Below, piece by piece: positions 11,558 to 22,652 of a stretch of DNA of 64,000 bases. A model generated the notes under the pieces. That model did not search any database. It saw only the letters and a list, made by a program, of their open reading frames with translations, and had not been told where the DNA came from. The first letter of the stretch is position 1; every line of letters begins with the position of its first letter. Location: the NCBI GenBank assembly GCA_000972765.1, contig CP011265.1:1116001-1180000 (forward strand), written 5' to 3'. Source of the stretch: Verrucomicrobia bacterium IMCC26134 (GTDB lineage: Bacteria; Verrucomicrobiota; Verrucomicrobiia; Opitutales; Opitutaceae). The translations under genes and the position numbers were made by a program.

Positions 11558-11995
11558 TTGAGCGTGGGGTAAATCGTCGGTGAGGCGACGTGTTGAAAAG
11601 ACATCCTTTGCAGGTTCGTCTTTAAATCATGCAGCAATATGACAGTTAGAGTTTTGGCGTCAGTTTGACCTTTGGGATATGCGTTTCGTATCAAGAGTGT
11701 ATGACCACTGATTATTTCTCGCGGAATAATCCGTAAAAGAGCGTAACTGCTGTGATTTGTTATTTTTTTAAATTACAATCGGTTGCCTGACGACGCATAT
11801 GCATTGAAGGCAGGGGCGCATAAACGTGAGGTGGATTAAGCCCGATATGCTGCCCAGAAGGGGAGTTGCATCACTCTCACGCAAACTCCGTGACTGGAGG
11901 CAGGTAAGTCCAGTGCGCGCCGTGGAACTAGTGCAATAAAAAGGCCGCCGTTTGCACGGCGGCCTTGAGGCCGATCACTCTTTTCAGAGCAAGGC
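11558..11995. other. 438-bp intergenic region between receptor and DUF4450-type gene
   Basis: Holds the terminator of the upstream receptor gene at 11936-11966 and presumably the promoter of the downstream DUF4450-type gene. Its central part (11690-11800) is distinctly AT-rich for this genome, with a TTTTTTTAAATT stretch. I see no ORF with coding character, no tRNA and no good sigma-54-like element here. Confidence 0.5.
11936..11966 (-). terminator. Rho-independent terminator after the TonB-dependent receptor
   Basis: A perfect 10-bp stem (AAGGCCGCCG at 11941-11950, its complement at 11957-11966) with a 6-base loop. On the minus strand it is followed by TTTTTATT. It lies 30 bp past the receptor stop codon and separates the receptor from the DUF4450-type gene. 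Confidence 0.9.
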
Positions 11996-14389
11996 TTAGA
12001 ACTTGTAGGCTACGGTGAATTCGCCCCGGATTCCAGGCTGGAGGAAGATGGACTCGTTGCCGTAAACGGCGTTGTTGGGAGCCCAGTTCCATTCGTCGGT
12101 CAGATTGAAGATGGAGAGACGTGCACTCCAGCTCTTATAGGTGTAGAAGAGGCTCGTATTTATCTCATACTGCCAGGGGATCACGATGGTGCCCGCCCAG
12201 TTGCTGTTGATCTCGCTGTGCAGGGTGCCGTTGAGGGAAACGCCAAAGCCGTTGTCGAAGGTATAGCTGGCGAGGGCGTTGAACAGGTTACGTGGCAGGC
12301 CTTGCACTTTGATGTTTTTCACGTCGCCACCGAGTCCGAGGGGACCGGCGGTCGTGACCTCGGGTTCAACGGTTCCGATGTCGGTGCTCAGGGACTCGAA
12401 GCCTTCCGAAGCGGCATGGCCATCGATCAAGCTATAGCCAAACGTCGCGAAGAAGTTTTTGTTGGGCTGGTAGTTCAACTCGATCTCTGCGCCACGGTAT
12501 TGGTATTCCTTGGCGGAGTCGCCCTGACCCTTGCGGGTGAACTTCTGATCGAAGACGGAGAACCCGGCGAAGAGTTTATTTTCCATCAGCGTCAGTTTCG
12601 CGCCCGCCTCGAACAATTCGGCTGGAGTGCGGTAGGAATCCTTGTCGATGGCCTGGCCGAAGAGGCCGAAGGTGCCGCCCGTCTTGGTGAGGAGGTAGCC
12701 GCCACCATTACCTTCCGCACCAGCGGTGTTCTCACTGTAATTATAGGTGAAGTAGTTGGTGAGCTTGCTGGTCGTTTTATTAACCAAACTGAAGTTCACG
12801 TTCGGCAGCACCACGGTGACCTCGTCGGTGAGGCCGGAGAACGGTTCCTTGGCCTCGACGTAGAGAACATCTGCGCGGCCTCCGCTGACCACTGAGAGGG
12901 TGTCGGTGAACTTGTATTCACCCTGCACGAAGGGGGCGAATGATGTTCCGCTGGATTCATTCGCATCGCTTGAGGTCGTGTTCTGGCCGTAGTAACGGCC
13001 AGAGTGACCAGGGACGGGACTACGGCCAAAGCCGGAGCCGTTGATTGAAGCCAGGAACGCGGCGGACTGGTAGGCGTTGATCGCACTGCGCGGCTGGGTG
13101 AGGTCCCAGACGCCCGCGGGCTCGAAACCGTAGTCGCTATAGGCCTTCACGTTGATGTGGCGGAAATCCATGCCAGCGGTGACGTCGGCCTTGTCGAAGT
13201 TCATCTGGTATTCCCAGCGAGACTGCAAGGTGAAGGCCGGATCTATGACCTCGGAGTAGTAGTAAGAACTGAGCGTGTCGCGCTGGGTAAAGGTGAAGAT
13301 ATTATTGTTAACCAGCTTGCGATCGGGTGTGGCGGTGAAGGTTTGAATGGCCTGCAACTTAGCGTTGGTTCCGGTGGAATTGTCGCCCGGCTTGAGGGTG
13401 CGCACGCGACGGTCGAGAGCGACCAAAGGCCCCCAAGCGACGGTGTTGCCATGGTTGGGTGCAAATACGTCAGGTCCGCCTACGTTGACCGCGTTCTGAC
13501 CGGCGTCGCCGACGGGAGCGGGGGCGTTCACGTTCACGCCGGTGCGGTAGAGGTGATGGTCAATCAGTTCCTGGGTAGGACGATTGATACCCCAGTTTTC
13601 CGTATACTCCATGTAGGCGAAGGAGGCGTTTGCGAACAACTCGTAGGAGTCGCTGGGTTTATAGGCGAGAGCGGCATAGACGGACTGCGACTTGCGATAT
13701 TCGCTCTCGAAGTAGCCCTTGCTGTCTTCCCCAGAGTAGCTGACGCGGACGGCGAGTTTGTCGCTCACCGGTGCGTTATAGTCGACCGACCAACGATAAA
13801 TATCGTCCGAGCCGACGGTGCCGCTCACGGTGGTTTTCTGCGCGTCGAAGGTGGGGCGCTTGGTGATCAAGTCGACGAATCCGCCGATATATTGGGACGA
13901 ACCCTGAATGGCGGTTGCGGGACCTTTGACGATGTTGATCGATTCGACCGCATTGAAGTCGATAGGCATGCCGTTGCCATTCGAGGTGGTGCGCTCGCGG
14001 ACGCCGTTTTGAAAGAGGTCGGCGGTGGAACCGCGCAAGTCAGGATTTGAAGGGGCGCCGAAGTTGGTCTTGGTGTAGGAGCTGGAAGTGAGCTTGGAGA
14101 AATCGCGCACGTCTTTCACTCCGATGGCAGTGAGTTGCTCGCGGGAGATGATGGTGACGTTGCGCGGGATCTCGGTGATGTTCTGATCGGTGCCGAACAC
14201 CGAATTGAACGGTCGCGAGGACGGAATGATGTTTTTCTCGATCGCGATATCACTTACATCAAGTTTTTCCAGTGTAACTACCTCGTCGGATGGCTTGGCG
14301 GTGGAGGCAGGAGGCGTTTGGGCCATCAATGGATAACTGAGACAACCCATTGCGGCCAAAAGGGTAAGGCTATGGAGGCGTATGTTCAT
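11996..14389 (-). CDS. TonB-dependent outer-membrane receptor, candidate purine/nucleoside uptake
   Basis: A 797-residue protein using the ATG at 14389, which puts a normal signal peptide (LTLLAAMGCLSYPLMAQ) at the N-terminus; the longer frame starts inside a promoter-like element. A plug domain follows (EIPRNVTIISREQL, then ESINIVKGPATAIQG and GGFVDLITKRPTF). The beta-barrel ends in a terminal aromatic (VAYKF), as outer-membrane proteins do. The sequence style is that of siderophore-type receptors. Its neighbours are adenine deaminase and exported nucleosidases, so I infer a purine or nucleoside substrate. The 88-bp gap after the deaminase holds its own sigma-54-like element, so it may be both co-transcribed and independently expressed. 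Confidence 0.85.
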   Translation of the reverse strand: MNIRLHSLTLLAAMGCLSYPLMAQTPPASTAKPSDEVVTLEKLDVSDIAIEKNIIPSSRPFNSVFGTDQNITEIPRNVTIISREQLTAIGVKDVRDFSKLTSSSYTKTNFGAPSNPDLRGSTADLFQNGVRERTTSNGNGMPIDFNAVESINIVKGPATAIQGSSQYIGGFVDLITKRPTFDAQKTTVSGTVGSDDIYRWSVDYNAPVSDKLAVRVSYSGEDSKGYFESEYRKSQSVYAALAYKPSDSYELFANASFAYMEYTENWGINRPTQELIDHHLYRTGVNVNAPAPVGDAGQNAVNVGGPDVFAPNHGNTVAWGPLVALDRRVRTLKPGDNSTGTNAKLQAIQTFTATPDRKLVNNNIFTFTQRDTLSSYYYSEVIDPAFTLQSRWEYQMNFDKADVTAGMDFRHINVKAYSDYGFEPAGVWDLTQPRSAINAYQSAAFLASINGSGFGRSPVPGHSGRYYGQNTTSSDANESSGTSFAPFVQGEYKFTDTLSVVSGGRADVLYVEAKEPFSGLTDEVTVVLPNVNFSLVNKTTSKLTNYFTYNYSENTAGAEGNGGGYLLTKTGGTFGLFGQAIDKDSYRTPAELFEAGAKLTLMENKLFAGFSVFDQKFTRKGQGDSAKEYQYRGAEIELNYQPNKNFFATFGYSLIDGHAASEGFESLSTDIGTVEPEVTTAGPLGLGGDVKNIKVQGLPRNLFNALASYTFDNGFGVSLNGTLHSEINSNWAGTIVIPWQYEINTSLFYTYKSWSARLSIFNLTDEWNWAPNNAVYGNESIFLQPGIRGEFTVAYKF

Positions 14390-14426
14390 GTGGTGGTGGT
14401 TTTGTTTGCTATGACAAATTATGCAT

Positions 14427-14442
14427 AGCAACGCATGTGCCA
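14427..14442 (-). promoter_or_regulatory. Sigma-54-like promoter of the TonB-dependent receptor
   Basis: On the minus strand TGGCACATGCGTTGCT has the sigma-54 pattern TGGCAC-N5-TTGCT, with GG and GC exactly 10 bases apart. The predicted transcript would start near 14416, giving a ~27-nt leader before the ATG at 14389. It is part of a 19-bp block (14423-14441) found again, with one difference, upstream of the NUP-like gene. This is the best of four such elements in the locus. An alternative is a binding site for a shared regulator. Confidence 0.6.
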
Positions 14443-14477
14443 GCCTTTGTTTTGTTCCATAGATGCTACAATATTTA

Positions 14478-16277
14478 TTAATAAAATAATGGCACTTGTT
14501 GCATTCCTGGCACGGTTACCAATCCCTTGTCGGTGATACGGATCTCAGGGATAACCGAGAGCGGTATCAAATTGAAGCCCATGTAAGGCAGGACGCAACC
14601 GGCTGCCGTCCAGGCTTTTTTGAGGCGAGTGGTTTCCTTCGCGACCGCCTTGGCCCTGAGTTCAGAGATGAGGCCCGCGATCGGAAGCGCGACCTTCGCG
14701 ACGACACGGTGTTTTTGCACCACGCAGACGCCGCCGCGCATTTCTTTGAGGGTATCGAGGGCGAGCTGCATGTCGGCCTCGTCGGTGCCGGCGATGATGA
14801 TGTTGTGTGCATCGTGCCCGACCGAGCTGGCAACCGCGCCCTCGCGCAGGCCGAAATCCTTGAGCAAGCCGTGTGCAACCGCGCCGGAACGGCCGTGGCG
14901 CTCGATGACGGACACGAAGCAGAGGCCGTGATTGACGAAGTGCTCGCCCCATGAAGTGGTGGGCTCTAGGCGGACTTTTTCGTGGAAAAGGATGATGCCC
15001 GGTAGCGCGGTGCGTATCACGTTGGCTGTGACTGTCTCGGCGGGCAGGGCAGGGGTGAGCGGGCGTTTGCGGCCTAGCTTGATGGTCTTATAGGCCGCCG
15101 CCGGATAGCGATAAGGCCGGCTGAGCGCTTTTTCCAGGATAGGGGTGATCTTGCGGTTTTTGACAACGAGTTCGCCGCCATACCAAGTGCATTGCGGCAC
15201 GAGCTCATCGTTGAGCAACACGAGGTCGGCGCGGCGGGCGGGGGCGATACCACCGATTTCTCCGTCCATGCCGTATCGGGTGGCGGGGTGAAGCGAGCCG
15301 AGACTCCAGGCGGTGACAGGGGGAAGTCCGGCTACGACCGCCTGCCGGGCTACCCAATCGAGGCCAAAGAGGAAAAGATCGTCGGCGTCGCGGTCGTCGG
15401 TGCAGATGCAGACACGCTTGGGGCTGGCGCCAAGTTCGGTGACCGCCTTGATCGCGTGCGGCAGGGAGTGCCAGGGGGTAGTGGGCGGGCCGCCGCGCAG
15501 GAACATCCACACTCCATTTTCGAGGAAATCGTCACCGATTTCACGATCAATGGCTTCGTGGGTGTCGGTGATGCCGCTGGCTGCTCCGGCGGCGACAAAC
15601 TCACGACCGTAGACGTGGCCGCAAATCGGGCGTCCGCGCTTAAGCGCGGCGGCCATGATGGCGTGGCTGCGGGGATCGCCCATCGCGACCTGGACGAAGT
15701 CCATTTTTTCGCCGAGAGCGACGGCTTCGGGCCAGCGGTCGAAGAGTTTGCCGATCTTTGCGGCGGTGAGATCGCCGCCGGCGGTTTCAAATTGCGGGCC
15801 GGTGGCGGGCACGGTGCTTGGGACGGTGAGGAAGATTGAGAGAGGCGCCTGTCGGGCGTCTTCCAACATCCACTCGATGCCGGCGGAGTCGCAAACGTTG
15901 CCAATCTCGTGGCTATCACAGAAGATGGTCGTCGTGCCATTGAGCAAGGCGCCTTCTGAGTAGGCGCAGGCAGTCATCATGCTGCTCTCAATATGGACAT
16001 GCGGATCGACGAGGCCGGGCGCGATCAACCCACCGGCGGCGTCGTAGGTCTTGATCCCCTTGCCGTGCAGGACGAGAGCGGTGCCTGCAGGTTTCACGGC
16101 GGCGATGCGTCCAGCCTTGATCCACACTTCTCGCGAATCGTGGATGCGTTCGGTGTAGGTGGATAGGATGCGCGCACCTGTGATGACGAGATCGGGAAGC
16201 TCGCGCCCCATCGCTACGGCGGCGAGGGTGCGGGTGAGCGTATGGAGCGGGGCGACACTGAAGCGGGTAAGATTCAT
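14478..16277 (-). CDS. ade: Adenine deaminase
   Basis: A 599-residue member of the AdeC/Ade amidohydrolase family, which converts adenine to hypoxanthine and ammonia with a Mn/Fe centre in the cytoplasm. The N-terminal helix and [18 protein letters not shown] are typical. Metal ligands are visible in DPHVHIESS (91-99) and [10 protein letters not shown] (119-128, where most homologues read DPHEIANV). Further family markers are [11 protein letters not shown] and the C-terminal domain motif GHDAHNI. There is no signal peptide. It lies between nucleoside-cleaving enzymes and a TonB receptor, which fits use of imported purines. A sigma-54-like element lies directly upstream. Confidence 0.92.
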
Positions 16278-16291
16278 GGTGGCTGATCCCT

Positions 16292-16307
16292 AGCACTGAT
16301 GATGCCA
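16292..16307 (-). promoter_or_regulatory. Sigma-54-like element upstream of ade
   Basis: On the minus strand TGGCATCATCAGTGCT keeps TGGCA, then TGCT, with GG-N10-GC spacing. The predicted start of transcription is near 16281, only about four bases before the ATG at 16277, so the mRNA would be almost leaderless. It is weaker than the receptor element and needs 5'-end mapping. Confidence 0.4.
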
Positions 16308-16328
16308 GCTAGCGAGACGGCGCGAGAC

Positions 16329-16344
16329 TGGCCTCCAATCTGCT
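16329..16344 (+). promoter_or_regulatory. Sigma-54-like element upstream of the amidohydrolase
   Basis: TGGCCTCCAATCTGCT shows GG-N10-GC spacing with TGGC and TGCT kept. The predicted transcription start is near 16355, a ~9-nt leader before the ATG at 16364. It is the weakest match of the four and is convincing only because the other three units of the locus have the same arrangement. Confidence 0.33.
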
Positions 16345-16363
16345 TTCCTGCCAGTCATTAACC

Positions 16364-17593
16364 ATGCCTGAAATCCGCGACTGCATCGTCCTCCACGGTC
16401 CTGAACTCCTCCCTATGCGCTGCGCGCGTTTCGCGTGGAAGCACGACACCATCACGGCGATGGAGCTCGGCGCCCCCTGCACTCAACTCGACGCCGGCGG
16501 ACTCGTGGTCATACCCGGCCTGACCAACGCACACACTCACATGGGAGATAGCGCCCTGCCTGACGGCGCCACTGGATTGACCTTGGAACAGGGCTTTTTC
16601 CGGCCCGACGGCTATAAATACCGCGAACTTGCCAAACTCACCGAGCAAACCCACCTCCCGCACCTCATCGCGCATTTACGCTACATGGCGCGAACGGGCA
16701 CGGTGAGGCACATGGATTTTCGCGAGCAGGGAGCCTACGGCGCCGCTTTGCTGCGCAAGGCTGCGCAAGCGACAGGGGTGGACTCCGTGATCCTCGCGCA
16801 ATTCAACGGCGTGCCTTTCACCCAAGGGGAACTGCGCGCCAACCAGATCGGCTTCCGTGCGGCCGACCTCGCGGATCTCGATGAGTTGCTCGCCGTCGCC
16901 GATGGTTTTTCGGAAAGCACGATGAACGACCTCACGGACGCGGCCTGGCGCGAACTGCGCGCCATCACGAACTCACAAGGGAAGCTCCGCGCCATCCATT
17001 GTCTCGAAAACGCCGGCTACCGCGACCTCTCCCTCGCCACCACCGGTCGAGGTGATTTGATCCGTGCGATCGAGCTCTATGATCCGCACCTCATTATCCA
17101 CCTGACCGTGGCCGATGCCGCCGAGATAGCGCTGCTGGTGCGCAGTGGCAAAACCGGCGTGCTCAATCCCCGTGCCAATGCCAATCTTGGCCTGCCCTTG
17201 CCGCCGGTAGCGGCCTTGCTGCGCGCCAAGGCGAACCTGCTTCTCGGCACCGACAACGGCATGCTTAACTCGCCATCCATGCTCGCCGAAATGGACTTCA
17301 CCTACAAGGTGGCGAAGTCCCAGTTCGGCGACGCGATCTCGCCCGATCCGGGGGCGATTCTAAAAATGGCCACATCCAACATCCATGCGGTGTTGGGCGG
17401 CGATAATTACGGTTACCTCCAAAGCGGATTGCCGGCGGATTTCGCGGTGCTCGATTTTAACCAGCCACAACTTCGCTCAACGCGTCACGTGACGGCCAGC
17501 GTGGTCACGCGGGTGACGCCCGAGGACGTGCTGGCGACCTACCGGCAGGGGCGCGAGCTGTGGCGCGACACTCGCTTCGTCACAGCTCCTTGA
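16364..17593 (+). CDS. COG0402-type amidohydrolase, probable purine/nucleobase deaminase
   Basis: A 409-residue cytosolic amidohydrolase. PGLTNAHTHMGDS (51-63) supplies the HxH metal ligands H57 and H59. Later ligands are in the HCLEN and IIHLT segments, and LLGTDNGML is the conserved Asp motif of deaminases of the guanine/SAH/atrazine group. It is transcribed divergently from ade and converges on the exported nucleosidase, whose stop it overlaps by 14 bp. Known relatives deaminate or dechlorinate purine, pterin or triazine rings. From context I infer a purine or nucleoside substrate, but the exact substrate is unknown. Confidence 0.75.
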   Translation: MPEIRDCIVLHGPELLPMRCARFAWKHDTITAMELGAPCTQLDAGGLVVIPGLTNAHTHMGDSALPDGATGLTLEQGFFRPDGYKYRELAKLTEQTHLPHLIAHLRYMARTGTVRHMDFREQGAYGAALLRKAAQATGVDSVILAQFNGVPFTQGELRANQIGFRAADLADLDELLAVADGFSESTMNDLTDAAWRELRAITNSQGKLRAIHCLENAGYRDLSLATTGRGDLIRAIELYDPHLIIHLTVADAAEIALLVRSGKTGVLNPRANANLGLPLPPVAALLRAKANLLLGTDNGMLNSPSMLAEMDFTYKVAKSQFGDAISPDPGAILKMATSNIHAVLGGDNYGYLQSGLPADFAVLDFNQPQLRSTRHVTASVVTRVTPEDVLATYRQGRELWRDTRFVTAP

Positions 17594-18494
17594 GGATGGC
17601 GCGCAGGACGCGCACCGCGTTGACCGACGAGGTCGATTCGTTGTCGTCGATTACGTTTTTCCCCTCCTGTCCGCCGGCGAGATCGCTGAGTGCCCGCACG
17701 GCCAGGAAAGGCACGCCATTCGTGTAGCAAACGTGGGCGTAGGCGGTGGTTTCCATGTCGAGGCAGCGTGCTTTCCAGACTTCGAACACAAATTTCCGAT
17801 AAGCGGCATTGTCCATGAAGACGGGTCCGGTCACGCCGGTGCCTCCGACCTCGATGGTGAGCACGCGTCCGGAACGATCGCCTTTAACTGGGCCGAGTTT
17901 GGCGATGGCCTGTTTCGCTAACGCGAGCAACGAGGGGTCGGCGGGGAAGGTCGGCACGCGATCGAATTTATCCAGACCGGATCGGGTGGCTACGACGTCA
18001 TCGGGAAACATCATGCCGAAATTGGGATACTTTTGCTTAAAATACTCCGCGATGTGGTGGCCGCCCTTGCCGTCCGGATTGAAGTAAGCCGCTTCGCAGT
18101 GGTAAGCCCACTGATCAGGGATAACCACATCGCCGACATGTAACGCCGGGTCGATGCCGCCGGCTACACCGGCAAAGAGCACGTGTGTGATGGGGAAATG
18201 GTCGAGCGCCAGCTGGAGTGCCATCGCGGCATTGACCATGCTCATGCCGGTCTCGACCACGAGCACGTCCTTGCCTTCGACTTCTCCGCGATAAAAGCGG
18301 AAGCCCTTGATGCTCTTTTGCGCGAAGCGTGGATCGTCGAGACCGAACTCTTTCACCATCGCATCCATCTCGGGTGGGTAGGCGTTGAGCACTGCGATCA
18401 GAGCCTGGGGTGTCTTCGGCGAGGCGTCTGGTTCGACCGCGCGAGCCAGAGGCAGGATGATGAGAAAAGCGAACAGGAGGCGGAGGTGTTTCAT
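17580..18494 (-). CDS. Exported MTA/SAH-nucleosidase-like (PNP_UDP_1) protein
   Basis: A 304-residue protein with a clear signal peptide (LLFAFLIILPLARA, residues 6-19), so it acts outside the cytoplasm. This is odd for the family, which is normally cytosolic. The phosphorylase/nucleosidase fold is marked by VLNAYPPEMDAMV, HVLFAGVAGGIDP (the glycine-rich substrate loop), ARCLDMETTAYAHV (the ME-T motif that binds the ribose) and VRALSDLAGG (catalytic Asp). Family enzymes split nucleosides such as methylthioadenosine, SAH or inosine into base and sugar. It follows the NUP-like gene by 16 bp, so the two form an operon. Confidence 0.82.
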   Translation of the reverse strand: MKHLRLLFAFLIILPLARAVEPDASPKTPQALIAVLNAYPPEMDAMVKEFGLDDPRFAQKSIKGFRFYRGEVEGKDVLVVETGMSMVNAAMALQLALDHFPITHVLFAGVAGGIDPALHVGDVVIPDQWAYHCEAAYFNPDGKGGHHIAEYFKQKYPNFGMMFPDDVVATRSGLDKFDRVPTFPADPSLLALAKQAIAKLGPVKGDRSGRVLTIEVGGTGVTGPVFMDNAAYRKFVFEVWKARCLDMETTAYAHVCYTNGVPFLAVRALSDLAGGQEGKNVIDDNESTSSVNAVRVLRAILKEL

Positions 18495-18510
18495 TTCGTA
18501 AAAGGAATAA

Positions 18511-19554
18511 TCAGGGTTTGGGCAACTCGGTGGCGTAGCAGTCCCAGCCTTTAAGCAGGGCGCTCACGACGCGACTGCCGACTTTATAAGCAGCTTCGAC
18601 CGAAGGAAGGTAGCCGCCGAGGGGGCCGTCCTGTTCTCCGCTGAGGCTGGCAAGGGCTGTGCCTTCCGGCCACTGCATATCGAAGTTGCTTGCGGTGCGG
18701 AGCACGAGCACTCGCTTTACGTCCGTCTTGCCCGCACGGGAGAGCCAGGTGAGTGCCTGAAGCGTGCCGGTATCCTCCATCGCGGTGGTGACGTAGTTGC
18801 CTCGGCCTTCGGTGTGGTAGGCGACCCAGTCGTTGGCCCATTGGTTGAGGAGTTTTCCATGCCAAAAAGTGCTGCTGGCGAGGTTGTCGCCTTTTAGCAC
18901 GAAGGGCGGACGTTGTGCGTTGGGGAAACCATCGTAACGCGTGCGGCGTTTGAGCATCTCGGGATTATCGTCGAGCGGAGTATCTTTGGTGAGTTGATAC
19001 GCCCAATCGACGAGACCGGGTTGCAGGTGGTAAACTTCACCGATTTTATCGTCTTTCCGGGGCTTGGCGTAAGGCTCGTAGCGTCCGTAGGGCAGATAGC
19101 CGGTCGGCCAGCCGTCAGGTATCTCGCGTGCGTCGATTTCGTAGCCGAGGTCCCCCTCGACCAGTGAGTTTGCCCAGACTGCCGAGCCCAAGGTGCCGTC
19201 AGCCGGGTCGATGCCGGCGATGCCGGCAACCAGCCAGTAGGCCTGGGAAAAATCAAAACGAGCGTCGAGCCCGAGTGCCATGATCGAGGCGGCGGAGCGG
19301 GTGTTGCCCATGCCGGTAACAATGCCTATTACCGAGCCATCGGCACTGGCTCTTACGTCGTGGTAGGCTTGGGGAAGCGGTATCACGCGGTCGAGTTTTT
19401 CGCGTTCGACCCAAAGTTGAAATTCCCCTGGCACGTCGCCGCTATCCGCTCCGACTTCAAACATCGATACGACCACCACCTTCACTTTCAGCGGGGCTTC
19501 GCTTGCGGCTAGGGCCGTGCATGTAAGGGCAAACAAAAGGGCGGAGGAACGCAT
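18511..19554 (-). CDS. Exported purine nucleoside permease (NUP)-family protein
   Basis: A 347-residue protein. The ATG at 19554 is chosen because it places a signal peptide (SALLFALTCTALAASEA) at the N-terminus; the frame to 19623 adds unrelated residues. The body matches the NUP family first described as Candida nucleoside permease, which shares the purine nucleoside phosphorylase fold: IGIVTGMGNTRSAAS, VAGIAGIDPADGTLGSA, TAMEDTGTLQAL and VLRTASNFDMQWP. No transmembrane helices follow the signal peptide, so in this bacterium it is more likely a periplasmic nucleoside-binding or nucleoside-cleaving enzyme than a channel. It is the first gene of an operon with the exported nucleosidase. Confidence 0.82.
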   Translation of the reverse strand: MRSSALLFALTCTALAASEAPLKVKVVVVSMFEVGADSGDVPGEFQLWVEREKLDRVIPLPQAYHDVRASADGSVIGIVTGMGNTRSAASIMALGLDARFDFSQAYWLVAGIAGIDPADGTLGSAVWANSLVEGDLGYEIDAREIPDGWPTGYLPYGRYEPYAKPRKDDKIGEVYHLQPGLVDWAYQLTKDTPLDDNPEMLKRRTRYDGFPNAQRPPFVLKGDNLASSTFWHGKLLNQWANDWVAYHTEGRGNYVTTAMEDTGTLQALTWLSRAGKTDVKRVLVLRTASNFDMQWPEGTALASLSGEQDGPLGGYLPSVEAAYKVGSRVVSALLKGWDCYATELPKP

Positions 19555-19564
19555 ATCCGCGCAT

Positions 19565-19580
19565 AGCAACTCATGTGCCG
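19565..19580 (-). promoter_or_regulatory. Sigma-54-like element upstream of the NUP-like gene
   Basis: On the minus strand CGGCACATGAGTTGCT shows GG-N10-GC spacing and lies in a 19-bp block (19561-19579) identical at 18 positions to the one before the TonB receptor. The predicted transcription start falls at the A of the ATG (19554), implying a leaderless mRNA, or else a different function for the block such as an activator or repressor site. Confidence 0.5.
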
Positions 19581-19682
19581 TCAGGCCGGGCATCTGGCAC
19601 CCGTTAGTGGGCAAGAGGCACATTGCTTATTAATGACGATGGGCTCGCACTCTCGTCTTCTATACTTTGGAGTTCGATTCAT

Positions 19683-22652
19683 ATGAGACGCACCCCCGCC
19701 TCTTCCGGTGATCAACTTGTTACCACTGAACTTCACCAACTCGCCATAGAGCTGGAGGGTGAGTTGCATTTAGACGCAGCAATGCGCCGGCTTTATTCGA
19801 CCGATGCCTCTGAATACCAGGAGATGCCGCTGGCGGTGGCGCTTCCGAAAAACGAGGCTGATTTACGTCGCTTGCTGGCGTTCGCCGTTCATCGCGGCGT
19901 TGGAGTCATCCCGCGCGCCGCCGGCACCTCGCTGGCCGGACAAGTTGTCGGCAATGGTATTGTCGTGGATATCGGTCGGCATCTCAACCGTATCCTGAGC
20001 TACGATCCGACAACCCGCCGGGTGAGAGTTCAACCGGGCGTGATTCGCGATGAACTCAACTTATTCCTCAAACCGCACGGCGTCTTCTTTACCCCTGAGA
20101 CGTCCACTGCGAACCGCGCCATGGTGGGCGGCATGGTCGGTAATAACTCCTGCGGCGCGAACTCCATTGTTTACGGTGCCACGCGCGACCATCTCGTCTC
20201 CGCCCGTGGCTACTTGAGCGATGGTTCCGAGGCGACATTCAGTCCGCTCACCCGCGAAGGGTTTGCCTCGAAATGCGCCGCGCCAGACTCGCTTGAGACC
20301 CGCATCTACCGCTGTGTGCGCGATCTGCTTGGCGACGCCGGGAATCGGGCACTCATCCGCGAAAACTTCCCCAAGCCCACCGTCACCCGGCGTAACACCG
20401 GCTACGCGCTCGATCAGTTGCTCGATAACGTTGTATTCGACCCCGCCTCGGCGACTCCGTTCAATCTCTGCCGGCTGATCGCTGGCTCCGAGGGCACTCT
20501 CTTTCTCGGGGTCGAGTTCGAGCTCAATTGCGAACCTATCCCGCCCGCCGGCGCGCTCATGTGCGTCCACTTTCCCAGCGTCGTGGACTCGCTGCAGGCG
20601 GCGGTAATCGTGATGAAGCACCGCCCCTTTGGTTGCGAACTCATCGACCGTCACATCCTCGAATGCACCAAGTCTAATCTCACTCACGCGAAGAACCGCT
20701 TTTTCGTGCAGGGCGACCCTGGTGCCGTGCTGGTCGTGGAGATTCGTCATGCGGATCGCGCCCATATCGAAACCGAGATGGCGGCGATCGAGGCAGAGTT
20801 GCGCACTGCCGGCCTTGGCTACGCCTTCCCTGTGCTTTGGGGCGACGATTGTGCGCGCGTCTGGGACCTGCGCCGTGCCGGCCAGGGTTTGATGAACATC
20901 GTTCAGGGTGACGCCAAACCCCGCGAGATCGTGGAGGATACAGCCGTAGCGATTGAGGATCTGCCTGCTTACATCACAGAGTTCGACGCCTTGATGAAGG
21001 GTAAATACGGCATCAGTTGCGTTTACTACGCGCACGCCGGTGCCGGGGAACTTCACACCCGGCCTCTGTTTAATCTAAAAACGCCCGAGGGTCTTGCTAT
21101 GTTTCGCGCCATCGCCACCGACGTGGCGGTGTTGGTGAAGAAGTATCGCGGTTCCCTCTCCGGCGAGCACGGCGACGGTCGCCTGCGCGGTGAGTTCATC
21201 AAGTTCATGGTTGGCGAGGCCTGTTACATGATGATGCGCCGAGTAAAGGAAACCTGCGATCCGCACAACATCCTCAATCCCGGCAAGGTCATTGATACTC
21301 CGCCGATGGATTCGCATCTGCGCCATGCAGTCGGTCACGTTGAGCCCGATTATAAAACCATCTTTGATTTCAGCGCCACACAGGGTGTTCTCCGTGCCGC
21401 CGAGGCCTGCACCGGTGTCGGCGAATGCCGCAAAACACATCTTTCGGGCGGCACGATGTGCCCGAGCTACATGGCCACGCGCAACGAGCAGGACAGCACC
21501 CGCGCCCGCGCCAACATGCTCCGACAGGTGCTGACTCATCCGCGTGATGTCGCCAATCCATGGGACAGCGAGGAGGTCAAAGGCGTTATGGACCTCTGCC
21601 TCTCCTGCAAGGCCTGTAAATCCGAGTGTCCGTCGAACGTCGACGTCGCCCGCCTCAAGGCGGAGTGGCAGCAGCACTATTATGACACTCACGGCGTGCC
21701 GCTGCGTTCGCGATTCATCGCCGGCTTTTCGCGCACTATGTTTCTGGCTGCGCTGGTCCCCGGAGCCTACAACTGGGCGGCCACCTCGCCGCGAGTGTCG
21801 GGTTGGATCAAGCGACTCGCCGGTTTCGCTCCAAGTCGCAGCCTACCGACCTTGTATCGCACCACACTCACCGCCTGGCATGCCCGTTTTGCGAATCCGA
21901 GGAGGTTCAATTATACAAACGGACGGGTATTTCTCTTTTGCGACGAGTTCACCAATTACAATGACACAAGAGTGGGCATTCAGGCGGTCGAATTGCTCAA
22001 CCGGCTCGGCTACGAGGTGATGATCCCGAAGCACGTCGAGAGCGGTCGGGCGCATTTCTCGAAGGGACTGGTCCGTGACGCGCAGAAAATAGCGATTCGA
22101 AACGTCGAACTGCTGGCGGATGTTGTCACTGACGCTATGCCGCTGATCGGTATCGAGCCCTCGGCGATTCTCGGTTTTCGTGACGAATACCTTTCGTTGA
22201 TGCCGGACCACCTAAAAGCTGCGGCTCAGACGCTCGCCAAGCGGGCCTTGCTCGTTGACGAGTTCATCGCGCGGGAAGCGGAGGCGGGGCGGATTACCAG
22301 TGCTGCGTTCGTGCCTGGTTCGCGTGTGATACGCTTGCACGGACACTGCCATCAAAAGGCACTCTCGTCGATGGTGCCGACGGTCAGAATGCTGGAGCTA
22401 CCCGTAGGTTACAAGGTGACGATGATCCCTTCCGGTTGCTGTGGGATGGCGGGTTCGTTTGGGTATGAAACTGAACATTTCGACGTCTCCCAAAAGATTG
22501 GTGAACTCGTTTTGTTTCCAGCGGTAAGGTCGACTCCGCTCGCAACACTTATCGCCGCGCCCGGAACGAGTTGTCGTCATCAAATCAAGGACGCAACCGG
22601 ACGTCCCGCTCTGCACCCGGTGGAAATTCTACGCGAAGCCTGCCGTTTTTGA
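19683..22652 (+). CDS. YdiJ-like FAD/Fe-S dehydrogenase (probable D-2-hydroxyacid oxidation)
   Basis: A 989-residue fusion. The ATG at 19683 is preferred because TTGGAG lies ten bases upstream; a TTG at 19623 also opens the frame. An FAD-binding PCMH domain (about 40-260; RAAGTSLAGQVVGNGIV and MVGNNSCGANS) is followed by the FAD-oxidase C-terminal domain (YYAHAGAGELHTRP, SGEHGDGRLRGEF). Then comes a 4Fe-4S ferredoxin-like region (CTGVGEC, CLSCKACKSECPS), and two cysteine-rich CCG domains end in GHCHQKALS and GCCGMAGSFGYE. E. coli YdiJ of this layout oxidises D-2-hydroxyglutarate. The shared divergent promoter region with the NUP-like gene does not prove a functional link. Confidence 0.85.
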   Translation: MRRTPASSGDQLVTTELHQLAIELEGELHLDAAMRRLYSTDASEYQEMPLAVALPKNEADLRRLLAFAVHRGVGVIPRAAGTSLAGQVVGNGIVVDIGRHLNRILSYDPTTRRVRVQPGVIRDELNLFLKPHGVFFTPETSTANRAMVGGMVGNNSCGANSIVYGATRDHLVSARGYLSDGSEATFSPLTREGFASKCAAPDSLETRIYRCVRDLLGDAGNRALIRENFPKPTVTRRNTGYALDQLLDNVVFDPASATPFNLCRLIAGSEGTLFLGVEFELNCEPIPPAGALMCVHFPSVVDSLQAAVIVMKHRPFGCELIDRHILECTKSNLTHAKNRFFVQGDPGAVLVVEIRHADRAHIETEMAAIEAELRTAGLGYAFPVLWGDDCARVWDLRRAGQGLMNIVQGDAKPREIVEDTAVAIEDLPAYITEFDALMKGKYGISCVYYAHAGAGELHTRPLFNLKTPEGLAMFRAIATDVAVLVKKYRGSLSGEHGDGRLRGEFIKFMVGEACYMMMRRVKETCDPHNILNPGKVIDTPPMDSHLRHAVGHVEPDYKTIFDFSATQGVLRAAEACTGVGECRKTHLSGGTMCPSYMATRNEQDSTRARANMLRQVLTHPRDVANPWDSEEVKGVMDLCLSCKACKSECPSNVDVARLKAEWQQHYYDTHGVPLRSRFIAGFSRTMFLAALVPGAYNWAATSPRVSGWIKRLAGFAPSRSLPTLYRTTLTAWHARFANPRRFNYTNGRVFLFCDEFTNYNDTRVGIQAVELLNRLGYEVMIPKHVESGRAHFSKGLVRDAQKIAIRNVELLADVVTDAMPLIGIEPSAILGFRDEYLSLMPDHLKAAAQTLAKRALLVDEFIAREAEAGRITSAAFVPGSRVIRLHGHCHQKALSSMVPTVRMLELPVGYKVTMIPSGCCGMAGSFGYETEHFDVSQKIGELVLFPAVRSTPLATLIAAPGTSCRHQIKDATGRPALHPVEILREACRF

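Follow-up and report, generated by a model that had tools for sequence, protein, structure and literature searches.

The question raised by this locus is how a set of purine-scavenging genes comes under common control. The window, a stretch of 64,000 nucleotides (nt) of Verrucomicrobia bacterium IMCC26134 (C1:1116001-1180000 of genome G000; one contig, 4.0 Mb genome), contains a purine locus of five genes in four transcription units. These genes encode a TonB-dependent receptor, an adenine deaminase (ade), a COG0402-type amidohydrolase, a 'NUP' protein and an MTAN-like nucleosidase. A sequence-only reading of this DNA had claimed that each of the four units is directly preceded, on the correct strand, by a GG-N10-GC pair of the sigma-54 (RpoN) -24/-12 type, and all four sites are present with exact spacing. 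Computation shows a conserved element with constant spacing and a recurrent distance to the start codon, in a family that carries rpoN. Conservation is the decisive evidence: judging from sequence, the TonB receptor, ade and NUP are likely to be transcribed by sigma-54 as part of a common regulon (probability roughly 0.8). Sigma-54 control of the locus is thus strongly supported for these three, but doubtful for COG0402. An NCS2 purine permease and the glutamine synthetase GlnII look like members of the same nitrogen-scavenging regulon.

Sigma-54 promoters follow the consensus TGGCACG-N4-TTGCW, in which GG and TGC are the most constrained letters, and transcription usually starts 12 nt past the C of GC. 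Leader lengths were predicted with +1 set at this distance. An E. coli form of the consensus is quoted in PMC5243855. The sequence-only reading described TGGC-type -24 boxes, but that of NUP reads CGGC; the earlier leader predictions of 27 nt (TonB receptor), 4 nt (ade), 9 nt (COG0402) and 0 nt (NUP) were reproduced. GG-N10-GC by itself is no more frequent in the window than expected (1122 occurrences versus 1134) and is uninformative there, so the argument has to rely on where the sites lie and on their conservation. The longer pattern TGGCAYN5TTGCW with at most one mismatch has 8 matches in the window, three of them at these sites, where 3.4 are expected; 8 matches were reached in 2 of 100 shuffles (first-order resamplings). 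Perfect matches to GGCACNNNNGTTGCWATGC number two in the whole 4.0 Mb genome, and both are at the purine locus; with up to two mismatches it occurs 6 times versus 15 for the reversed pattern.

Orthologues were drawn from a 120-genome sample of the family, which named relatives place as Opitutaceae, and the 150 nt before each match were scanned for GG-N9-TGC sites that agree with the consensus in 9 or more of its 12 letters. All matches were read for the TonB receptor (29/29), COG0402 (27/27) and the NCS2 permease (21/21), together with 30 of 66 NUP matches (44 genomes), the best 30 of the ade matches in 65 genomes, the best 30 of the GlnII matches in 97 genomes and 29 loci of the CNT nucleoside transporter (30 of 47 matches taken, one of which was dropped for want of upstream DNA). 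An element precedes NUP in 20 of 30 loci (reverse strand: 5; shuffle mean: 1.3), ade in 24 of 30 (4; 0.8), the TonB receptor in 24 of 29 (2; 0.6) and the xanthine-type NCS2 permease, which is unlinked to the locus in G000, in 18 of 21 (6; 0.6). Three of the NCS2 reverse-strand elements belong to a divergent phosphoribosyltransferase gene or its counterpart. As a control, 15 of 402 mechanically called open reading frame starts, taken from 40 regions and including some target genes, have the element. By genus, it is found at 8/12 or better in 17 of 19 for NUP, 15 of 17 for ade, 16 of 17 for the TonB receptor and 13 of 13 for NCS2. The GG and GC positions are therefore conserved in orthologous loci of the TonB receptor, ade and NUP, and the claim of an element in all four units stands for these three but is poorly supported for COG0402 (3 of 15 genera at 9/12 or better).

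The form of the element is also conserved. Within 100 nt of the start, GG-Nx-TGC[AT] has x = 9 in 89 of 110 loci, while none of the other spacings tried (x = 4 to 15) is found in more than 18. When the best window is chosen freely, 86 of the 110 loci reach at least 9/12. Mismatches in the best windows are rare on GG (4 and 0), TGC (0, 2 and 1) and the last W (2), and number 11 to 64 on the other box letters (first T of TTGC, 64; A, 41; G, 31; C, 25; first T, 23; second C, 11). Identity between orthologues is 70-88% in the boxes, 32-36% in the spacer and 25-29%, which is near-random, in the upstream flanks. Among 80 named NUP loci, grouped by record title, the element reaches 9/12 in 17 of 27 titled Opitut-, 0 of 13 from other Verrucomicrobia and 2 of 40 from other phyla (a few matches lie far from the start and are possibly not promoters). 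The promoter is therefore a trait of the lineage and not part of the NUP gene family.

The genome of the window encodes RpoN (PF04552, E-value: 5.3e-56), as the sequence-only reading would require, and rpoN is present in 110 of the 120 family genomes (92 of the 96 of good quality). GlnII is preceded by TGGCAY-N6-TGCT in 30 of 30 loci read, so that a nitrogen regulon is the most natural context. The nitrogen rationale proposed earlier, that purines release nitrogen, is strengthened by an element common to GlnII and the NCS2 permease (18/21). In G000, nine intergenic matches to the strict pattern TGGCAYN6TGCW have a start within 100 nt, and seven of these precede purine or nitrogen genes: ade, the TonB receptor, the NCS2 permease, the CNT transporter, GlnII, a glutaminase and an SsuA/urea-type ABC binding protein. 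Some of these names were given by eye, and three of the labels (GlnII, CNT and binding protein) are below curated cut-offs.

Several results weigh against sigma-54 control of this gene set. The element falls below 8/12 in some orthologues (NUP, 6/30; ade, 6/30; TonB receptor, 3/29; NCS2, 2/21) and has been lost even within the genus to which the window belongs, before ade in G044 and G098 and before the TonB receptor in G098. COG0402 and CNT are mostly without it (4/27 and 5/29 loci at 9/12 or better). The strict pattern is not in excess genome-wide (25 matches versus 28 for the reversed pattern), and the remaining two of the nine strict sites precede genes named by eye as parA-like and rpsO-like. 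A search by sequence motif, in open reading frames of at least 150 amino acids, met no activator gene in the 115 loci fetched around NUP or a partner gene, and no shared activator motif was found in 93 upstream regions.

On these counts COG0402 was rejected as a firm fourth member, yet sites matching 11/12 letters are found in G020 and G064 (one genus). The CNT site of G000 was likewise rejected as a member of the regulon, and CNT was then used as a control. A few of the elements before COG0402 and CNT may nevertheless be real, because x = 9 is counted 10 times in their 56 loci and any other x at most twice.

The position of the element relative to the start codon bears on translation. Measured from the C of the -12 box, the first in-frame ATG is most often 13 nt away for NUP (8/24), ade (8/24) and NCS2 (7/19), and an ATG lies 12-14 nt after the C in 13 of 24, 15 of 24 and 10 of 19 loci, respectively (with one further NCS2 gene starting at GTG). 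With GTG included, starts 11-14 nt after the C occur in 9 genera for NUP, 12 for ade and 9 for NCS2. From the 12-14 nt placement, the NUP, ade and NCS2 messages are predicted to begin often at the start codon or 1-2 nt before it. The TonB receptor start lies 15-46 nt after the C in 19 of 26 loci, and that of GlnII 41-109 nt after it, with a predicted leader of ~29-97 nt. The near-leaderless placement noted earlier is thus repeated from genus to genus before NUP, ade and NCS2, but the TonB receptor mostly has a predicted leader.

No Shine-Dalgarno-like 4-mers were found at -15 to -5 of ade (0/30) or GlnII (0/30), and no Shine-Dalgarno positional peak at 213 family starts sampled; some Verrucomicrobia are listed as scarce in such sequences in a published survey (PMC10783764). 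Because the sampled starts show no Shine-Dalgarno signal, leaderless messages fit the translation of this family, and a leaderless reading of the predicted NUP, ade and NCS2 messages is plausible. A further proposal, to which even odds are given, is that selection keeps the purine-nitrogen sigma-54 promoters of the Opitutaceae 12-14 nt ahead of the start codon. RpoN would then drive a conserved class of leaderless mRNAs, in bacteria whose gene starts lack a Shine-Dalgarno signal, while GlnII would keep its leader. If so, promoter placement would also set the mode of translation. If the leaderless prediction is true, activator-dependent transcription and leaderless translation would be directly coupled in a lineage where no Shine-Dalgarno signal is visible, and the recurrent distance makes the idea testable gene by gene. 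Leaderless mRNAs, transcribed from at or near the start codon, are described for Leptospira, Sinorhizobium and Deinococcus-Thermus, among others (see PMC5243855 and PMC3616915). The leaderless genes of Deinococcus-Thermus are -10-adjacent, whereas the elements described here are of the -24/-12 type and, within a single pathway, lie 12-14 nt from the start repeatedly in different genera.

Of the other explanations, the one that survives best accepts the sigma-54 promoters but attributes their control to a purine-specific activator in place of general nitrogen control. It shares the promoter claim with the reading preferred here and differs in the activator only, so the odds of the two overlap; it is considered possible, though the less probable choice of activator. 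The precedent is the DioR regulon of Clostridiales (Nie et al. 2019, PMC6615313; also PMC11448449), for which sigma-54 control of pbuX and purine/xanthine-type genes is predicted, and G000 does encode an orphan activator without a receiver domain. The dioR activator gene is itself listed in that regulon, whose function is listed as 'Unknown' and whose table row (PMC6615313) is without ade, NUP, a TonB receptor or GlnII. However, the motif search met no activator gene in the 115 fetched loci mentioned above, GlnII has the same type of promoter (although another activator may serve it), and strict sites also precede the glutaminase and SsuA/urea-type binding-protein genes of G000. Much less probable is that the element is not a promoter core but the operator of a purine-responsive repressor or activator that binds GCA-N7-TGC. 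This partial inverted repeat does lie inside GGCA...TGCT, and the lack of a genome-wide excess of strict matches would suit an operator, but 41 of the 86 sites have a mismatch at the A of GCA, whereas GG and TGC are near-constant, and so the symmetry is not kept. One orientation is retained, NUP, ade and NCS2 share a preferred distance to the start, and the element also precedes GlnII in every locus read, all of which argue against an operator. Finally, chance matches in a GC-rich genome, the best of which were picked, are a very improbable source of the TonB receptor, ade, NUP and NCS2 elements in view of the spacing peak, the conservation of boxes between diverged flanks and the controls, even though bare GG-N10-GC is found everywhere and the COG0402 site matches 8/12 letters only; chance is a possible origin of the COG0402 and CNT elements.

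Sigma-54 transcription requires an activator in the proposed regulon, and candidates are encoded elsewhere in G000. Eight proteins match PF00158, five of them with E-values below 1e-20. Three of these five have a GAFTGA, GSYTGA or GAYTGA loop; the two without it, judging from this motif, probably do not open sigma-54 promoters. One candidate is an NtrC-like response regulator at C1 ~1,619,000, whose best family is TIGR01818 (491.9 bits, below the cut-off of 558.6). Another, at ~1,968,000, is an AtoC-like regulator adjoining an AtoS-like kinase, both below cut-offs, and the orphan activator mentioned above lies at ~3,522,600 (L179:7199-8659). GCAAG is found in most GlnII loci, mostly ~60-105 nt upstream of the -24 box, and in one subgroup (L019, L023, L026, L027, L032 and L033) it is part of GCAAGAACCAATTTGC, or of a close variant, and has a constant position a short way upstream from the -24 box of NUP. 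Neither was accepted as an activator site, as there was no recurrence before other genes; GCAAG and GCAAGAACCAATTTGC may be -35 boxes of divergent genes.

The label NUP stands for a purine nucleoside permease, which the predicted fold does not bear out. A PDB sequence search with NUP gave no match, but its AlphaFold model (pLDDT 85) has an alpha/beta fold resembling that of nucleosidases. All of the 50 PDB matches listed by a fold search are MTAN (MTA/SAH nucleosidases) or futalosine hydrolase, with TM-scores of ~0.5 by query and 0.65-0.76 by target. The model thus speaks against an integral membrane permease, and NUP is probably a nucleosidase. The N-termini of both NUP (hydrophobic) and the MTAN-like protein appear signal-peptide-like by eye.

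The proposed working of the regulon, including its inducing condition, substrates and protein locations, is as follows. Upon nitrogen limitation, an RpoN activator encoded elsewhere would open the promoters of the TonB receptor, ade and NUP/MTAN-like units; the NtrC-like or AtoC-like response regulator could fill this role, the choice between them being no better than a guess. The TonB receptor would bring purine nucleosides or bases to the periplasm, where NUP and the MTAN-like protein, as putative periplasmic nucleosidases, would release the bases. These would be imported by NCS2 and deaminated by Ade, and perhaps by the COG0402 protein too, to release ammonia, which GlnII would assimilate.

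In the NtrC/sigma-54 regulon of Proteobacteria, RpoN promoters precede glutamine synthetase and nitrogen-scavenging genes. The regulon proposed here is similar in that GlnII and nitrogen-scavenging genes have RpoN-type promoters and an NtrC-like regulator (below cut-off) is encoded. It differs in belonging to another phylum, in a core devoted to purine scavenging that includes a TonB receptor and nucleosidases predicted to be secreted, in the lack of activator sites found here and in its predicted near-leaderless messages. A literature search pairing adenine deaminase with NtrC found nothing, and neither a sigma-54 purine regulon in Verrucomicrobia nor conserved leaderless sigma-54 messages were met in the openly available portions of the literature searched (subscription papers lie outside this search). 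A cross-phylum survey (PMC12316311) reports sigma-54 promoters in the class Opitutia with lesser enrichment of some nitrogen-fixation genes; its main text does not contain the words purine, nucleoside, xanthine, adenine or leaderless. Sigma-54 nitrogen regulons are already known; the one proposed here would be new in its purine core and in a near-leaderless layout that keeps recurring. Sigma-54 regulons are less explored beyond Proteobacteria and Firmicutes, and for a large family of environmental Verrucomicrobia this would be a compact and testable nitrogen regulon, with purine compounds as a nitrogen source.

Three further sites in G000 touch on the proposed members. A second, opposite sigma-54-like element lies by NCS2 (C1:1416282-1416326), and in three genomes the -24 boxes of such a pair are 13-14 nt apart, so that polymerase could hardly bind both simultaneously. 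In G000 this opposite element faces a hypoxanthine-phosphoribosyltransferase-like gene. Among the 20 genomes with NCS2, 11 encode it no more than ~12 kb from NUP, the TonB receptor or ade; G000 is not one of them. At C1:436855-440559, two strict sites accompany genes for an SsuA/urea-type ABC binding protein (below cut-offs) and a urea-carboxylase-associated-like protein (by eye), which suggests further nitrogen-scavenging members. At C1:3595953-3595968, a strict site is followed by an in-frame ATG right after the C and a second ATG 36 nt on, leading into the glutaminase.

Table 1. Sigma-54-type elements, genes and terminator of the purine locus (window coordinates)
Feature	Position	Strand	Details
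Sigma-54-type element TGGCACATGCGTTGCT, TonB receptor	14427..14442	-	11/12 consensus letters; predicted +1 14416, 27-nt leader
Sigma-54-type element TGGCATCATCAGTGCT, ade	16292..16307	-	9/12 letters; predicted +1 16281, 4-nt leader
Sigma-54-type element CGGCACATGAGTTGCT, NUP	19565..19580	-	10/12 letters; predicted +1 = A of ATG at 19554, leaderless
Weak sigma-54-like element TGGCCTCCAATCTGCT, COG0402	16329..16344	+	8/12 letters; predicted +1 16355, 9-nt leader; uncertain
TonB-dependent receptor, putative outer-membrane port for purine compounds (inferred substrate)	11996..14389	-	Pfam Plug 1.2e-10
ade, adenine deaminase	14478..16277	-	TIGR01178 1.6e-103, 347 bits (below cut-off 472.5); Adenine_deam_C 5.1e-49
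COG0402-type amidohydrolase (chlorohydrolase/deaminase-like), divergent from ade	16364..17593	+	Amidohydro_1 4.2e-22; NF005552 2.3e-64, below cut-off
MTAN/PNP-type nucleosidase gene	17580..18494	-	PNP_UDP_1 2.7e-45; TIGR01704 above cut-off; PDB MTAN matches
'NUP' gene	18511..19554	-	PF06516 9.5e-116, 386.8 bits (Pfam gathering score 27)
Possible intrinsic terminator, 3' of TonB receptor gene	11941..11966	-	11-pair stem, 8 G-C pairs, T-rich tail

The earlier gene inventory was correct in its four units, but the genes number five, as the MTAN-like gene (17580-18494) follows NUP. It starts 16 nt behind NUP, and the two presumably share one transcript. The closest named NUP relative among the matches listed is from an Opitutaceae metagenome-assembled genome (89% identity; records of the same genome were possibly excluded). 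TonB receptor orthologues are encoded close to ade, NUP or NCS2 in several relatives. Terminator-like sites in the locus region number 8, with 7.3 expected. Within 11900-19800, an Rfam search gave no match and a scan for sigma-70-like promoters gave none, with 2.5 expected; the latter result is in line with sigma-54 promoters. Extra, short-spaced copies of box letters lie next to the real sites at 14480-14510 and 19580-19625 (TGGCACTTGTTGC, GGCACATTGC and repeated GTGCC).

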